Assembly: GCA_020832545.1 (NCBI GenBank)
Contig: JAFIEK010000037.1
Coordinates: 1-37,835 of the forward strand
Origin: Pararhodobacter sp.
Lineage (GTDB): Bacteria > Pseudomonadota > Alphaproteobacteria > Rhodobacterales > Rhodobacteraceae
Length of the DNA stretch: 37,835 nucleotides
Reading direction: 5' to 3'
Both the position numbers and the translations under genes were made by a program. The notes under the pieces were generated by a model. It was given only the letters and a program-made list of their open reading frames with translations, did no database searches and was not told the origin of the DNA. Of the stretch, positions 14,509-20,906 are shown piece by piece; the stretch's first letter is position 1, and every line of letters begins with the position of its first letter.

Positions 14509-14934
14509 TCACTCCTCGCGCGGATCAACCCGTCCCCGCAACGATTTGACCGAGCCGCGGCGGTTTTTTGCATCAACCCGGCGGCGCTGGCTTGAAAGTG
14601 TGGGCCGGGTGGCGATCCGGCGTTTGGGGGCAACCAATGCGCGCTCGATCAGGTCGGCCAGCCGCTCGCGCGCGATTTCGCGGTTGCGGGCCTGGCTGCG
14701 GGTATCCTCGACCCGGATGATCAGCGCACCGTCCAGCGTCCAGCGCCGCCCGGCCAGCTTTTTCAGCCGCGTCTTGACGGCGGGCGGCAGCGCGGGGCTG
14801 CGCTCGGCCTCGAAGCGCAGCTCAACGGCGGTGGACACCTTGTTGACATTCTGCCCCCCCGGCCCGGTGGCGCGGGTGAAAGTTTCGGACAGTTCCCAGT
14901 CGTGAATAGTGATCTGATCGGTGATACGCAGCAT
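14509..14934 (-). CDS. arfB: Alternative ribosome-rescue peptidyl-tRNA hydrolase ArfB
   Basis: A 141-residue ArfB/YaeJ (ICT1-type) protein that enters the A site of ribosomes stalled without a stop codon and hydrolyses the peptidyl-tRNA. The catalytic GGQ loop is present in TGPGGQNVNKVST at about residues 23-35. The long basic tail (RRIATRPTLSSQRRRVDAKNRRGSVKSLRGR) is the segment that threads into the empty mRNA channel. No codon-recognition domain is present, which separates it from release factors RF1/RF2. It is transcribed leftwards ahead of the NUDIX gene. Its upstream region holds an unusual leader with a very strong ribosome site, a short rare-codon ORF and hairpins, described separately. 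Confidence 0.94.
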   Translation of the reverse strand: MLRITDQITIHDWELSETFTRATGPGGQNVNKVSTAVELRFEAERSPALPPAVKTRLKKLAGRRWTLDGALIIRVEDTRSQARNREIARERLADLIERALVAPKRRIATRPTLSSQRRRVDAKNRRGSVKSLRGRVDPREE

Positions 14935-14975
14935 GGCCGAGGTTCTTGTCAGTTTATCGGGACAGTTAATCTAAC

Positions 14976-14998
14976 GGCCCCCCCGACTCCGGGCGGCC
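14976..14998 (-). promoter_or_regulatory. Hairpin 42 bases before the arfB start
   Basis: GGCC(G)CCC / GGG(G)GGCC form a stem with one mismatch around the loop GGAGTC, followed on the minus strand by an AT-rich stretch (GTTAGATTAAC). It could be a weak attenuator in the arfB leader. There is no real T-tract, so termination is uncertain. Confidence 0.35.
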
Positions 14999-15054
14999 CT
15001 CACGAGCTTTCAGGAGATGGGGCCGGTTAGAGACCGTGCCCAATCAGAGGTCGC

Positions 15055-15069
15055 GCAGCCTCGGGCTGC
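15055..15069 (-). promoter_or_regulatory. Hairpin immediately after the leader ORF stop
   Basis: A perfect 6-bp stem (GCAGCC-CGA-GGCTGC on the minus strand) starts two bases after the stop codon of the 18-codon leader ORF. No T-tract follows, so it is more likely a stalling, processing or attenuation structure than an intrinsic terminator. Confidence 0.4.
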
Positions 15070-15071
15070 CT

Positions 15072-15128
15072 TCAGCTGACGCCCCCACTGACTGTTCCGA
15101 CACCTCTCTCCAACATCACTCTAGACAC
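15072..15128 (-). CDS. Candidate 18-residue leader peptide upstream of arfB
   Basis: A GTG-started frame encodes an 18-residue peptide (VMLERGVGTVSGGVS after a Met-Ser-Arg start). Its ribosome site is extraordinary: the 17 bases 15144-15128 on the minus strand (GAAAGGAGGTGGTCCAG) can pair over their whole length, with one G-U, to the usual bacterial 16S 3' tail. GGAGG lies seven bases before the GTG. The codons are atypical for this GC-rich window: two AGA, plus TCT, TTG, GGT, GGA and ACA. A hairpin follows the stop by two bases, and arfB starts 137 bases downstream. I recognise no homologue. It may be a regulatory leader ORF for arfB, or the remnant of a lost gene or insertion element. Confidence 0.4.
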   Translation of the reverse strand: MSRVMLERGVGTVSGGVS

Positions 15129-15165
15129 TGGACCACCTCCTTTCGCTGGGTTGACTGTAAGGACG

Positions 15166-15193
15166 ATGGTGGCACAGATTTTGTGTTTGTCAA
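15166..15193 (-). promoter_or_regulatory. Candidate sigma-70 promoter for the arfB leader
   Basis: A perfect -35 hexamer TTGACA (15193-15188) starts seven bases after the yhhQ stop. Sixteen bases on is a weak -10 (CACCAT, 15171-15166). A start near 15158 would leave about 30 bases before the GTG of the leader ORF. Confidence 0.4.
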
Positions 15194-15199
15194 AAGTTT

Positions 15200-15823
15200 T
15201 TATGCGACAGGTAGCGTCAATTTTCGAACAAGTATCCGAAACGGCGCCAAAGCGAGCAGCGCGAGGGCCAGTTTGACCATCCAGTCGGCCACCGCCATGC
15301 TGACCCAGAAGGGCGCGACAAATCCCCAGCCCAGCAGTGGTGTGGCCTCACCAGCCCAGGACACGTCGTTGCCCGGCTCCAGAAAGGTCAGGCCGGCAGC
15401 AAAGGCGATGGAGAAGAACAGCGCGGTGTCAACGGTAGAGCCCACGAGGGTTGAGGCAAGCGGGGCCTTCCACCAGCGCTGATCACGCAGCCGGTCAAAG
15501 ATGGCGACATCGAGCATCTGCGCCGTCAGGAATGCCAGGCCCGAGCCGATGGCGATGCGCAGTGTCACCAACGGGCCGAACTCGCCGATAATCTGCGTGC
15601 CGATCAGCGAACACGCTACACCGGTGGCAAAGCCCGCCCAGACGACACGCCGCGCGGCTGCAGGCCCATAAACACGGTTCATCACGTCATTGACCAGAAA
15701 GGCCAACGGGTAGGTCAGCGCACCCCAGGTGAGGAAATCCCCCATCAGGAACTGCACAAGAATATTGGAGGCCACGACAATGGCGGCCATGGCAAGAATG
15801 CCGGGCAAGTATATGCGGGTCAT
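15200..15823 (-). CDS. yhhQ: Queuosine precursor transporter (VUT family)
   Basis: A 207-residue inner-membrane protein of the VUT/YhhQ family (PF02592), which imports preQ0/preQ1 for queuosine modification of tRNA. About six hydrophobic helices are visible. The conserved block TYPLAFLVNDVMNRVYG near residue 38 is diagnostic, followed by ARRVVWAGF and, later, ASTLVGSTVDTALFFSIAF, the second family motif. The start ATG has a GGAAGA ribosome site. It is transcribed leftwards toward the arfB leader, and a possible structured leader precedes it. No queuosine biosynthesis gene is nearby, which fits a salvage role. Confidence 0.92.
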   Translation of the reverse strand: MTRIYLPGILAMAAIVVASNILVQFLMGDFLTWGALTYPLAFLVNDVMNRVYGPAAARRVVWAGFATGVACSLIGTQIIGEFGPLVTLRIAIGSGLAFLTAQMLDVAIFDRLRDQRWWKAPLASTLVGSTVDTALFFSIAFAAGLTFLEPGNDVSWAGEATPLLGWGFVAPFWVSMAVADWMVKLALALLALAPFRILVRKLTLPVA

Positions 15824-15939: not shown

Positions 15940-16347
15940 TCACTTGGCAAGCGCAATCTGGCATGGCACGATCGCTACCTGAACAATCAGGGCGTGCAGG
16001 CACACTTCAATGCCAATTCCGCACCGAACCGTGACATATAGGCCGATTGTTGCGAAATTTTGCCCAAAAAAGACCGCATTCAGACGGCTGTATGCATCTT
16101 GCAAGATTACGCAGAGGACAAAGTTAAAACATAGCGTGACACATAGAATTGACTCCCCGCAGTGCATCGACACTGGCGCAAGACCAGACGCCGCTGCGGA
16201 ATAGAGGCCGGGAAAGGCAAGTATGAGCAGGCAACATACGGACGCGGCAAATGCGCCCCACAAGATGACAGAGGCCGCAGGCCGCAAGCGGTACGCGCGC
16301 AGCACACCTGCGCATGACGTCGCGCCCACCGGGGTGTCGGCTTTCAT
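15940..16347 (-). CDS. Doubtful Cys-rich hydrophobic ORF in a 550-base gene gap
   Basis: Between yhhQ and the sensor kinase about 550 bases carry no recognisable gene. The only sizeable frame encodes 135 residues with roughly three hydrophobic stretches (about 25-52, 64-82 and 98-132) and about ten cysteines, which is unusual. The region is visibly less GC-rich than its surroundings and the codons have a weaker preference for G/C at the third position. I recognise no family. It is divergent from the kinase and has no clear ribosome site. It may be a small membrane protein of foreign origin, or a chance frame in regulatory or decayed DNA; I lean to the latter. Confidence 0.25.
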   Translation of the reverse strand: MKADTPVGATSCAGVLRAYRLRPAASVILWGAFAASVCCLLILAFPGLYSAAASGLAPVSMHCGESILCVTLCFNFVLCVILQDAYSRLNAVFFGQNFATIGLYVTVRCGIGIEVCLHALIVQVAIVPCQIALAK

Positions 16348-16373
16348 TACGGGTGATTTGGCAAGGTAACGGT

Positions 16374-19300
16374 ATGCGGTCTGACAGAACCCTTCAACAA
16401 GCGAGTACCGACGCCGTACCCGAAGGCATCGAGCCCGAGGTTATCGGGCGGATCGGTCTTGCGCGGCTGCACAGGAACGGGCGGTTCTCATCTGCCGATA
16501 CCAGCCTGAGCGAACTTCTGGACTTTGCCGTCGACGAATTCGAGCATATGACACTCGGTGACATCGTTCATCCAGAGGACATGTCCCAGGTTCAGCGGCT
16601 TCTTGACCAGCTTAACGCCGAAGACATGCGGGGCTTTTCGATTGAGGTGCAGATCCTGCCCAAGGGTGGGGCACCGATCTGGGCGGTCTGTCAGGTCATC
16701 ACCGTTTGCACCTCCGGCCAGTCGCGGCAGGATTTCGCACTGATTGTCAGCGAACTGCCGGGCTACACGCAGACCGTCAGCGCGCTGCGAACCAGCGAGC
16801 GGCGCTACAAGACGCTTTTGTCCAACCTGGCCGGTGTTGTCTATCGTTCGATCCCTGATGGCAAAGGCGACTTCAGGCTGGACTACATCAGTGACGGCAC
16901 ACGCGATCTGTTCGGTATCGACCCGGAAGACATGATGAGCGGCGCAGTCACGCCTGCAGATGTCGTTCATCCGGATGATTTCGATGGCATGCGCGCTGCA
17001 ACGCGCAAAGCGATGGATGAGCACAAAATGGCGCGGAACCTGTTCCGGGTTCGCCAGTCTGACGGGGAATATCGCTGGGCGCTGGAAACATGCCGCGGCA
17101 TCGAGGACGGCAAGGGCAATATCGAAGCGCTTGAGGGCTTCATCACCGACATCCATGAACAAAAACAGATCGAGGAACGCCTGAGCGAAAGCGAGCGCGC
17201 GCTGATCGAAAGCGAGCGCCAGCACAAGGCACTTCTGTCGAACCTTGTGGGTGTCGCGTTTCGGATGGGGGCCACGGAAACAGATGTCTGGCTGGAATAT
17301 GTCAGTGATGGTGTGCGCGATCTGTTCGGGATCGAACCCGATGCACTGACAAGCAATCAGATCACACTCGCTCAGGTTATCAACAAGGAAGACCGCAGGG
17401 CAATGCGGGACAGCATCCACGCGGCGCTGAAAACCGGCACCTCCACCAGAAATGTGGTGCGGGGACTTCAGCCCGACGGCAGCTTTCGCTGGATGGTGGT
17501 GACTATGCGGGCGGTCATGAATGAAGATGGCGAAACATTTGCCATTGAGGGGCTGATCACCGATATCCATGAGCAAAAGGAAATCGAAGAACGGCTTTAT
17601 CGCAGCGAGACGGAACTGCGCGAGGCGCATGAGTTGGTGGGCCTGGGACGGTGGGAGCTGGATTGCGTTACAGGCGAGTTGACCTGGTCAGAAGAAACCT
17701 ACCGTATCTTTGGCCAAGACCCCGAGAGCTTCACACCCACCCTTGAAGCCTTTCAGGCGTCGATCCACCCGGAGGACCGAGAGGAAGAAAACGACGTGCG
17801 ACACACCGCAGAGGCCGGGGTGGCGCCCTACGATTCCGTACATCGGATCATTCGTCCGGATGGCGAGACCCGGTACATCGCCGAACGTGGAGAAACGACA
17901 TTCGATGAACAGGGTAACCCCCTGCGCACCATCGGCACAACGCTGGACATAACCGACCTCAAACGCACCGAACAGGCGTTGATCGAAGAGCAGGCCTTCA
18001 AGAACGCCTTGCTGGAGTCTTCTGATTTCGCGGTGATTGCCTGTGACGAGCACGGACAGCTGAAAATGTTCAACCGCGCCGCGCGTGAGTGGCACGGCCT
18101 GGACGCCTTTGCCATTCCGCCAGAGGAATGGGCGCAGCATTATGCTCTGCGCACGGCGGACGGTTCACGCCCGCTCAATACCAGTGCGATTCCGCTGGTG
18201 CGCGCACTCAACGGCGAAACCGTGCGCGACGCAGAAATGTCGATCCATCGGGAAGGAAAGGCGCCGCGCTTCATCACCTGCAACGGTGCGTCGCTTTATG
18301 ATTCCAAAGGGCGCAAGCTGGGCGCGATGGTGATCATGCGCGACATCACGCGCCAGCGCATCACCGAGGCCAATCTGCGTCAGCGCGATGCGATCCTGAG
18401 TGCTGTCGCCTATGCCGCCGAACGCCTGCTGACAACGTGGGATTGGGAGCAGGAGATCGATACCATCCTGTCGACGCTGGGTCAGGCCATCCACTCTGGC
18501 CGCGCCTATGTCCTGCGTGCCAAGACCGACCGCGAGGGCCACATCCACATTTCAGCGCATCACGAATGGTGCGCGCCCGGGATCTCGCCCACCTTCCTGT
18601 GGTCCATGCCCAAAGGGTTCAACATGATGACTGCGGGGCTGGGCCACTGGGCTGAGCGCATGCAGCTTGGCGGCGTAATGCAGTCCCGCTCAAGCGAATA
18701 CCTGCCGGCCGAAGAAAAGCTGATGAAGCCGGACGGGATCAAGGCGATCATCGCAATTCCGATATTCGTGCATGGAGAATGGTGGGGCATTCTGGGCTTT
18801 GACGATTGCCAGACTGATCGCCATTGGTCACTGGCCGAGCAAGAAGCCCTGCGCGCGGCGGCCAATACCATCGCCTCTGCCATTGAGCGGCGGCGCCAGC
18901 AGGAAGACCGGCTGGCACGCAATGTCGCCGAAGAGGCAAACCACGCCAAATCAGCTTTCCTGGCAACCATGAGCCATGAAATCCGCACGCCTATGAATGC
19001 AATCCTTGGGTTGTCCGAGGTGCTTGGCCAGAGCGCGATGACCGAGGAACAATCCGATCTGCTGGGCGCCATGCACGATGCCGGGCGGCATCTTCTGACA
19101 CTGATCGACGACATTCTGGACATCTCGAAGATCGAGGCCGGGCAAGTCAAGATGCTGCCAGCCGAGGTCAGGGTTTTTGACACGGTCGATGCCGTCGTTG
19201 GCAGCCTGATCAACACGGCAGCCGACAAGGGCGTTATGTTGCATGTCTTCGTTGCGCCAGACCTGCCCGAGATGATCAGAACCGACGAACTGCGGCTGCG

Positions 19301-20906
19301 GCAGGTGATCTATAACCTGCTCGGCAATGCCATAAAGTTCTCCGCCGAGATGCCGGACCGCGACGGCAGGGTTGAACTGCGTGTGGACCGCGATGAAGGC
19401 GCAACGCAAGAGTTGCGGGTCACGGTGCGCGACAACGGGATCGGCATGTCAGAGGAATTGATGGAGCGGGTGTTCGACCCCTTCGCGCAGGGCGATTCTC
19501 AGCTCACACGGCGCTATGGCGGGACCGGGCTGGGGCTTGCAATCACCCACCGGATCGTTGCAATGATGGGCGGTCGGGTCTCGGTATTCAGCACGGCGGG
19601 CGAAGGGTCGACCTTCACGCTCAACCTGCCCCTTGATCCCGCCACCGACGAAACACCCGCCGCACGCGCGCAACCGCTCCAGGGTCTTCGCTGCCTCGTG
19701 CTGGAAAGCGAGGGCTACATTGCCCACGATATCGCCGCCTATTTGCGCCACGCCGGGGCCAGCGCGAGCGTTGCCAGCACGGCCGGGACCCGCCCTAAAC
19801 AGTCTCCGGACGACCGGGTTTCGTTGCTGATCCACGGGCCAGAACATGCCCGGCACGCGCAATCACTGTCCGACATCCCGCACCTGCTGATAGAGCCGGG
19901 ACGGGGACGGCGGGCACGCCTTATCGCAGACCGGATCACCGCCGTTGACGGCACCGGGTTGTCCCTTGGCCGCCTGATCGAAGCCGCCTCGCTGGCCACC
20001 GGGCGTGTTCAGGCCAGCGATGTTGACCCCGCAGGCCTCGGTGAGGCCGAGCACGGTTATGCTGATTATGCCGGTGTAAAGCCGATCCTCGTGGCCGAGG
20101 ACGACCCGCTGAACCAGAAGGTCATCCTGCGCCAGCTTGCCTTGCTCAACCTGAGTGCCGAGATCGCAGACGATGGCAATCAGGCGCTGATCATGGCCCG
20201 GGAGGGCGCGTATTCAATGTTGCTGACCGATCTTCATATGCCGGACATGGACGGCTACGCCCTTGCCCGCAAAATCCGCTCGGAAGGAATTTGCGCTGTC
20301 GACAAGAGCGAAACACCACGCCAACTGCCGATTCTGGCGTTGACGGCTGATGCCCGCCAGCAAGTCGTGGATTCAGTGTATGAAGCCGGAATTGACGGCC
20401 TCCTGATCAAGCCTGTCACGCTGAAGGCACTGGATGCCGCACTGCGGCCATGGCTGGGCAATGGCACTAACGCTGACGAAGATCGGGCGCAGCAGGCTGC
20501 CGCCGCGCCTGCACCTGAAGCCAAACCAGCCGCGGAACCTGCAAGCACGCAACCGGTGCTCGACCTGACAGAGCTTTCGGCACGGATCGGCGATGATGAG
20601 GATTTACAGCATGAATTTCTGACCGAGTTTCACAACCAGATGACGCCGATTGCCAGCGAGATCCAGGAAGCCGCCAGCGCCCGGGACCTGCACAAGGTAG
20701 GCGCGCTTGCCCATCGCCTGAAATCGACCTCGCGTGCTATCGGCGCGATGGAACTGGGTAGCGTGTGTGCCCATATTGAAGATGCCTGCCGGAAGGAGGA
20801 TCCTGATGAACTCAGCCCCTTACTCGCCCGTTTCGGGCGCTCTTCAGAGGCCGTTGGGCTTGCAATCGCCCGCACCGTTGGAAGCGAAGCCTATGTCAGC
20901 CATTGA
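16374..20906 (+). CDS. Hybrid sensor histidine kinase: PAS x5, GAF, HisKA, HATPase, REC, HPt
   Basis: A 1510-residue phosphorelay kinase with no membrane segment, so a cytoplasmic sensor. Order (approximate residues): PAS 28-126 (divergent), PAS 143-270, PAS 283-409, PAS 415-536, PAS 543-663, GAF 673-840, HisKA with phospho-acceptor H868 (SHEIRTPMN), HATPase with N985 (NLLGNAIKFS), G boxes DNGIGM and GGTGLGL, a degenerate receiver-like block 1103-1213, a receiver with D1286 (LLTDLHMPDMDG), a Pro/Ala linker, and HPt with H1447 (LAHRLKSTSR). The second and third PAS domains are close copies. The ATG at 16374 (AAGG upstream) is preferred to an ATG at 16314. The receiver-EAL gene overlaps its end, suggesting that phosphoryl groups pass to that protein. 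The input signal is unknown. Confidence 0.93.
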   Translation: MRSDRTLQQASTDAVPEGIEPEVIGRIGLARLHRNGRFSSADTSLSELLDFAVDEFEHMTLGDIVHPEDMSQVQRLLDQLNAEDMRGFSIEVQILPKGGAPIWAVCQVITVCTSGQSRQDFALIVSELPGYTQTVSALRTSERRYKTLLSNLAGVVYRSIPDGKGDFRLDYISDGTRDLFGIDPEDMMSGAVTPADVVHPDDFDGMRAATRKAMDEHKMARNLFRVRQSDGEYRWALETCRGIEDGKGNIEALEGFITDIHEQKQIEERLSESERALIESERQHKALLSNLVGVAFRMGATETDVWLEYVSDGVRDLFGIEPDALTSNQITLAQVINKEDRRAMRDSIHAALKTGTSTRNVVRGLQPDGSFRWMVVTMRAVMNEDGETFAIEGLITDIHEQKEIEERLYRSETELREAHELVGLGRWELDCVTGELTWSEETYRIFGQDPESFTPTLEAFQASIHPEDREEENDVRHTAEAGVAPYDSVHRIIRPDGETRYIAERGETTFDEQGNPLRTIGTTLDITDLKRTEQALIEEQAFKNALLESSDFAVIACDEHGQLKMFNRAAREWHGLDAFAIPPEEWAQHYALRTADGSRPLNTSAIPLVRALNGETVRDAEMSIHREGKAPRFITCNGASLYDSKGRKLGAMVIMRDITRQRITEANLRQRDAILSAVAYAAERLLTTWDWEQEIDTILSTLGQAIHSGRAYVLRAKTDREGHIHISAHHEWCAPGISPTFLWSMPKGFNMMTAGLGHWAERMQLGGVMQSRSSEYLPAEEKLMKPDGIKAIIAIPIFVHGEWWGILGFDDCQTDRHWSLAEQEALRAAANTIASAIERRRQQEDRLARNVAEEANHAKSAFLATMSHEIRTPMNAILGLSEVLGQSAMTEEQSDLLGAMHDAGRHLLTLIDDILDISKIEAGQVKMLPAEVRVFDTVDAVVGSLINTAADKGVMLHVFVAPDLPEMIRTDELRLRQVIYNLLGNAIKFSAEMPDRDGRVELRVDRDEGATQELRVTVRDNGIGMSEELMERVFDPFAQGDSQLTRRYGGTGLGLAITHRIVAMMGGRVSVFSTAGEGSTFTLNLPLDPATDETPAARAQPLQGLRCLVLESEGYIAHDIAAYLRHAGASASVASTAGTRPKQSPDDRVSLLIHGPEHARHAQSLSDIPHLLIEPGRGRRARLIADRITAVDGTGLSLGRLIEAASLATGRVQASDVDPAGLGEAEHGYADYAGVKPILVAEDDPLNQKVILRQLALLNLSAEIADDGNQALIMAREGAYSMLLTDLHMPDMDGYALARKIRSEGICAVDKSETPRQLPILALTADARQQVVDSVYEAGIDGLLIKPVTLKALDAALRPWLGNGTNADEDRAQQAAAAPAPEAKPAAEPASTQPVLDLTELSARIGDDEDLQHEFLTEFHNQMTPIASEIQEAASARDLHKVGALAHRLKSTSRAIGAMELGSVCAHIEDACRKEDPDELSPLLARFGRSSEAVGLAIARTVGSEAYVSH

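Follow-up and report, generated by a model that had tools for sequence, protein, structure and literature searches.

A conserved 18-codon open reading frame with a full-length Shine-Dalgarno sequence upstream of arfB in a Pararhodobacter genome, and its probable relationship to the CC2171 RNAs of Alphaproteobacteria

The stretch of DNA analysed here (the window) comprises 37,835 nucleotides of a Pararhodobacter sp. genome (GCA_020832545.1, contig JAFIEK010000037.1). On its minus strand, the gene for a queuosine-precursor transporter (15823-15200), the element described below, the ribosome-rescue gene arfB (14934-14509) and a NUDIX gene (14428-13973) follow one another in that order. On the plus strand, a 1530-codon ORF (16314-20906) resembles, as judged by eye, a large multi-domain sensor histidine kinase. 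Read 5' to 3' on the minus strand, the element consists of TTGACA, an extended -10 region, a 17-nt Shine-Dalgarno (SD) sequence, an 18-codon ORF, two hairpins (P1 and P2), the motif CATCTCC and a further hairpin at about 15002-14972. The features are:

15200-15823, minus strand: queuosine-precursor transporter gene (Vut_1/YhhQ-like; PF02592 and TIGR00697), the upstream neighbour
15188-15193, minus strand: TTGACA, -35 element of the element's own putative promoter, seen directly in the letters
15166-15176, minus strand: extended -10 region TGTGcCACCAT (consensus TGTGnCAnnnT), from aligned Rhodobacteraceae promoters
15128-15144, minus strand: extended SD, 17 nt, GAAAGGAGGTGGTCCAG, the last G of which is the first base of the GTG start codon
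15072-15128, minus strand: short ORF of 18 codons plus TGA (stop 15074-15072), (M)SRVMLERGVGTVSGGVS, with its GTG start at 15128
15109-15132, minus strand: hairpin H0, in which UCCAGUGUC (SD end and start codon) pairs with codons 5-7
15041-15094, minus strand: hairpin P1, beginning at codon 12 and spanning the stop codon, from the arm-swap test
15021-15040, minus strand: small hairpin P2, before CATCTCC, from folding and the arm-swap test
15013-15019, minus strand: CATCTCC, an anti-SD-like strand whose pairing with GGAGGTG (15140-15134) closes the junction
14972-15002, minus strand: hairpin at the terminator position, its T-run lost in the window's genome, from folding and same-genus relatives
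14509-14934, minus strand: arfB, the next gene downstream (NF006718, 181.3 bits, cutoff 100), treated as a neighbour of the element

The initial annotation had described a 17-nt stretch that pairs along its whole length with the expected 3' tail of 16S rRNA, and this was confirmed. The SD pairs over its full length, with one G-U, with CTGGATCACCTCCTTTC, the expected tail, at a computed -30.4 kcal/mol. A 38-nt stretch containing this expected tail gave a 100% match to Rhodobacteraceae plasmid records, and it was not found in the assembly of the window's genome or in five other assemblies. Only one SD site of this kind occurs in the window's genome. Among 175 distinct Rhodobacteraceae sequences it is almost invariant, variation at positions -15 to -1 being confined to single sequences except at -5 (A in 103, G in 71 and C in one), and its duplex with 16S rRNA has a calculated energy of -30 to -31 kcal/mol. 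Pairing over the full length of the SD is generally considered to hinder ribosome escape, and such strict conservation therefore calls for explanation.

A 271-base query recovered the element from all 17 same-genus genomes and matched 22 of 40 relatives, some over 42-59 bases only and one (L022) outside the SD part. A 30-base pattern spanning SD and ORF, with up to three mismatches, was present in 47 of 149 Rhodobacteraceae genomes (one per genus) and its reversed control in none, while a 20-base core with up to two mismatches was found in 119 of the 149, against five for the reversed pattern. The exact pattern occurs in at least 118 stretches of named genomes, and the titles among the 80 matches listed are those of Rhodobacteraceae-type organisms or metagenome bins. 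Altogether, 194 of 197 Rhodobacteraceae loci could be located (L022 and L269 are without the motif, and L057 is too short), giving the 175 sequences after removal of identical cores and 107 after an 80% identity filter. The comparison with related Rhodobacteraceae that the initial annotation had proposed shows the ORF, the SD match and the hairpins to be conserved. The original observation holds up and lies far beyond chance expectation. The element is present in a single copy in the window's genome, not as the same sequence at many unrelated loci, and searches of plasmid and phage collections gave no match to it. Together with its conservation, this excludes, as far as tested, the decayed gene or insertion remnant that had been offered as the alternative; chance, decay or the end of a mobile element, in favour of which nothing was found, can be assigned a negligible probability, refuted as it is by conservation and single copy.

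Beyond the family, an SD pattern followed by RTGTC (up to one mismatch) was matched in 61 of 289 alphaproteobacterial genomes, with one match for the reversed control; most genomes have it once, and genome G035 has it at two places. Of 299 genomes drawn across the phylum, 86 were Alphaproteobacteria, of which 51 matched, versus eight of the 213 others (counted by hand), all eight with one mismatch and close in number to the reversed control (5/213). The alphaproteobacterial loci outside the Rhodobacteraceae (hereafter class loci) comprise 53 distinct sequences.

The GTG-started ORF was also borne out. Exactly 18 codons precede the stop in 163 of the 175 Rhodobacteraceae sequences; the start is GTG in 173, ATG in one and ACG in one, and the stop codons over all 175 are TGA (86), TAG (60) and TAA (29). 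In neither of the other two frames do the lengths converge on codon 18 in this way: 97 sequences reach a stop after three codons in frame +1 and 69 after one codon in frame +2, early stops that arise because the bases near the start are fixed. AGA at codon 3 (170/175) and ACA at codon 12 (166/175) are kept beyond what the amino acid alone demands. The AGA codon (15120-15122, minus strand) sits in the loop of H0, where it is dispensable for pairing, and in other lineages this codon is often CAT.

A plain small mRNA for a functional micropeptide, with RNA structure only tuning its translation, would fit the length fixed at 18 codons, a second codon that changes almost only synonymously (TCG 80, TCT 72, TCA 19, TCC 3) and the motif LERGVGTV, which is kept within the Rhodobacteraceae. 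However, the last five residues vary widely, between families the peptides share no sequence beyond the starting MS, and pairing accounts for codons 5-7 and 12-16, so that we consider a micropeptide role doubtful.

The perfect minus-strand TTGACA reported upstream of the SD was confirmed at 15193-15188. This hexamer is found in 110 of 173 Rhodobacteraceae upstream regions, nearly always at -46 to -51 from GAAAGG, and 125 aligned promoters share an extended -10 region (T97 G98, then A99 and T99 in the -10 hexamer), from which transcription would start near 15159. Within 15166-15193 (minus strand), the first base of the -10 hexamer is C, not T, as in nearly all 125 aligned loci. A consensus scan of 14900-15300 recognised neither a promoter nor a terminator. 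The motif CAAC lies 4-15 bases before GAAAGG in 45 of 53 class loci and 122 of 174 Rhodobacteraceae loci, compared with six and 17, respectively, after shuffling.

A plain alignment of the 107 filtered sequences gave only a weak RNAalifold consensus (-13.6) that missed P1, and arm-swap tests were adopted for this reason. The arms of P1 pair better with each other than when swapped between sequences (n = 107, Wilcoxon p 1.5e-10); only 17 of the 107 rank within the best two of 41, though the mean shift is significant. For P2, the difference between own and swapped arms has p 5e-6 (86 of 107 sequences usable). H0 forms nine of nine pairs in 129 of 175 sequences and eight of nine in 39 (mean 8.67, versus 3.4-5.1 for shifted partners), and the CATCTCC-like motif forms seven of seven pairs with GGAGGTG in 160 of 175, versus 29 of 175 when the 3' part is shuffled. 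In the first 50 of the 107 filtered sequences, opening the SD and start codon would cost on average 12.4 kcal/mol versus 7.4 in shuffles, with z>1 in 41 of the 50. The closed junction is the minimum-energy fold of the window sequence, the overall energy of which is only modestly better than that of shuffles (z -1.90; 8/200 as good). Burial of the SD and start codon in a conserved predicted fold is a trait of the window's family.

These folds alter part of the original description. The first hairpin had been placed two bases past the stop codon, while P1 begins inside the ORF at codon 12, so that the stop lies within its upper portion. A second hairpin is indeed present at about 15002-14972, and it sits where 17 of 17 same-genus relatives have a terminator. 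The proposal that rare codons act as slow codons is weakened: codons 5-7 (ATA TTG GAG) pair with the SD/start strand, with all nine pairs in most sequences, and base pairing can therefore explain them, which leaves AGA at codon 3 unexplained by pairing. A very strong initiation site, a conserved ORF that looks translated and conserved hairpins are all supported.

The relation of the element to arfB bears on the initial annotation's suggestion that this gene is the regulatory output. All 17 same-genus relatives have an intrinsic terminator ending in CCCTTTC before arfB, and the window's copy, GGGGGGGCCGTTAG, is without the T-run, which may mean higher arfB read-through or may be an assembly error. 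The transporter gene lies upstream of the element in 158 of 165 Rhodobacteraceae loci, and in 133 of 173 it is followed by arfB in the same orientation; the other 40 have no arfB start within 900 nt, although seven of them carry the gene 1.1-2.9 kb further on, and the sequence retrieved for the remaining 33 shows none. These 40 loci, of which L265 is probably a chance match, keep the element: 39 have 18 codons, 39 the SD-sequestering helix and 38 a terminator-like hairpin (37-39 for the features overall). Six genomes from such loci were searched whole, with two genomes carrying an adjacent arfB as positive controls: three of the six have arfB on a different contig and two have it about 3 kb downstream, and no arfB was found in the sixth, a genome estimated to be 100% complete. 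At the class loci, neither ArfB nor the transporter was found within about 1.5 kb at any of 30 loci.

Since the element is kept without arfB, arfB is found elsewhere and the 30 class loci are without it within about 1.5 kb, the comparison indicates that the element does not depend on arfB. A transcription attenuator specific to the Rhodobacteraceae, in which ribosome supply or stalling on the ORF alters terminator read-through and hence ArfB, would draw on the frequent downstream position of the gene on the same strand, on the window's terminator without a T-run, and on the short distance from the terminator to the arfB start (60 nt or less in 88 of the 132 Rhodobacteraceae loci measured, 35 nt or less in 42), which leaves little room for another promoter. 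Against it stand the equal conservation of the element at arfB-less loci, the occurrence of arfB away from the element and the 0/30 class loci, and a search by eye found no conserved antiterminator. An attenuator of this kind is thus unlikely, and as a general role it was rejected on synteny; the terminator before arfB likewise leaves arfB unsupported as the general output. Given the closeness of the arfB start to the terminator and the window's missing T-run, read-through transcription of arfB may well occur in Rhodobacteraceae, and more so in the window.

CC2171, the Caulobacter RNA represented by Rfam family RF01867, reportedly goes back to Landt et al. 2008. At gathering thresholds, Rfam gave no matches in the whole window. 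Below them, RF01867 aligned with the element at 26.5 bits (gathering score 75; E 4.9e-4 in 251 nt), end to end over positions 1-159, so that the Rfam search pointed to by the initial annotation yielded no formal assignment but a full-length candidate. Searching with RF01867 at E<=0.001 gave matches in 60 of 289 alphaproteobacterial genomes, nine of them above the cutoff and the window's own genome not among them; of 14 named controls, Caulobacter vibrioides was matched. The element and CC2171 share the 5' stretch GAAAGGAGGUGRUCCAGUGUCU, an SD-like block followed by RTGTC, as well as a GC-rich 3' hairpin at the terminator position (an intrinsic terminator in the same-genus relatives, without its T-run in the window), similar size and unlinked neighbours. 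They differ in that the long-range helix of the Rfam model, CAUUGUC:GACAAUG, is absent from the window, where, as in other Rhodobacteraceae, SD:CATCTCC pairing and H0 are used instead and the SD and start are predicted to be buried; furthermore, the Rfam type label is sRNA and the search output mentions no ORF. The element is probably a diverged relative of RF01867, not a formal member.

An ORF is a regular feature of the class loci. All 50 that were kept (ORF counts exclude, by judgement, L204 with 58 codons, L226 with 28 codons and L228, which runs off its contig) have an ORF of 18-35 codons, starting with GTG in 26 and ATG in 24; the other frames give nine and 17 of 50. Codons 3-5 pair with bases just before the terminator, and this helix shows compensatory changes (CATTGTC:GACAATG, CATTGCC:GGCAATG, CATAGTT:GACTATG, CACCAAA:TTTGGTG and AATGAGATT:AATCTCAT). 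In the arm-swap test (43 loci after a terminator filter, 25 arm types), own arms gave -8.8 and swapped arms -5.15 kcal/mol (p 1e-8), although a weaker difference persists in the control with an 8-nt shift (-9.49 vs -7.56). When the closing helix was compared with shuffles, 28 of 50 loci reached P<=0.05 and 15 reached P<=0.01. In the 52 class loci long enough for the opening test, the SD is on average less enclosed than in shuffled sequences (mean z -0.83; z below -1 in 28 loci), and burial of the SD was rejected as a class-wide trait.

The shared SD could be convergent, since it copies one 16S tail. We favour homology with RF01867-type RNAs over convergence because traits beyond the SD are shared. 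L023, a Rhodobacteraceae locus between the transporter gene and arfB, has a beginning, ATGTCTCAT, that resembles the Caulobacter type, which makes it a possible intermediate. In six of the 53 class loci (L172, L174, L239, L241, L242 and L243), the ORF includes a 16S-tail copy lengthened by three bases (CTGGAnnGTnRCCTCC). This copy could pair with the RNA's own SD, but few predicted folds use it (L172 does, most others do not) and it was set aside as a mechanism. A common theme among neighbouring genes was also rejected: of 20 flanking ORF translations, several of them probably in wrong frames, four of ten upstream and six of ten downstream had Pfam matches, all different, and three of the downstream ones are encoded on the opposite strand.

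Leader-peptide attenuators of the trp type, as commonly described, resemble the element in having a short ORF, hairpins and a terminator position upstream of a gene; the element, unlike these, has no consistent downstream gene and no regulatory codon run, and its SD is far stronger. We know of no homology between the element and the leader ORF with an extended SD in Staphylococcus aureus. That leader (PMC13009471) likewise combines extended SD pairing with a small ORF containing rare codons, and it differs in belonging to unrelated bacteria and preceding a defined gene. Pos19 of Rhodobacter sphaeroides, from the same bacterial family, is similar by its description as a small coding RNA and differs in being 219 nt long and stress induced (PMC5036791). 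MH_s33 of Mesorhizobium huakuii is annotated as RF01867 in PMC5596092, where RNA-seq products are given for 34 of 35 non-riboswitch candidates, the missing one being MH_s6; a relative of the element is, on that account, transcribed. The Rfam 15 paper adds one covarying base pair to RF01867. According to Schrader et al. 2014, 75.4% of Caulobacter genes are without an SD, and the 133 ncRNAs, among them 27 already known, are mostly untranslated, although two of those 27 are translated. A literature search, with most subscription journals outside its coverage, found no paper describing the ORF or the 16S match of a CC2171-type RNA. That search likewise turned up neither the short ORF of these 'sRNAs' nor an SD and start predicted to be buried in Rhodobacteraceae and open elsewhere.

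An ordinary trans-acting sRNA, with a CATCTCC-like strand or a loop as its seed and an incidental ORF, would agree with the sRNA classification of CC2171 in Rfam and with the separate promoter and terminator. The RTG start in 50 of 50 class loci and the fixed ORF length would not be expected of an incidental ORF, and we regard this explanation as improbable. Comparison instead supports, as the parts of one unit, a promoter motif, the extended SD, the 18-codon ORF, a predicted fold that buries the SD and start, and a terminator in relatives. On balance, the element is probably a small transcription unit of its own and represents, within the Rhodobacteraceae, a type of alphaproteobacterial RNA to which CC2171 also belongs; it would act as a ribosome-docking small mRNA opened by pairing with 16S rRNA.

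For such a docking mRNA, a 30S subunit would displace a strand of the closed fold and so open it, since the energy of the 17-bp SD-16S duplex, about -30 kcal/mol, exceeds the roughly 12 kcal/mol needed to free the SD and start; by these nearest-neighbour energies, the subunit should win over the fold. The ribosome would then translate the ORF and unfold P1 at the fixed stop codon, and the RNA would exist in a closed and a ribosome-occupied state. In the latter it might serve as a 30S decoy or sensor, act through its peptide, or make the anti-SD-like strand available to other mRNAs. An effect through occupancy by the ribosome seems most likely, since the SD, start, ORF and folding persist from family to family, unlike the peptide sequence and neighbouring genes. 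More tentatively, it is possible that the RNA reads the state of the small subunit throughout the class, its 5' end complementing the mature 16S tail and docking 30S subunits or parking initiating ribosomes on a throw-away ORF, with folds that differ between lineages (an open form that has a covarying long-range helix, or a buried SD in Rhodobacteraceae) setting the number of free subunits at which it switches. In many Alphaproteobacteria, an RNA catalogued as an sRNA appears, on comparative evidence, to carry a short conserved ORF together with the longest kind of SD that a 16S tail allows, and the function of such an RNA is now directly testable in laboratory strains.
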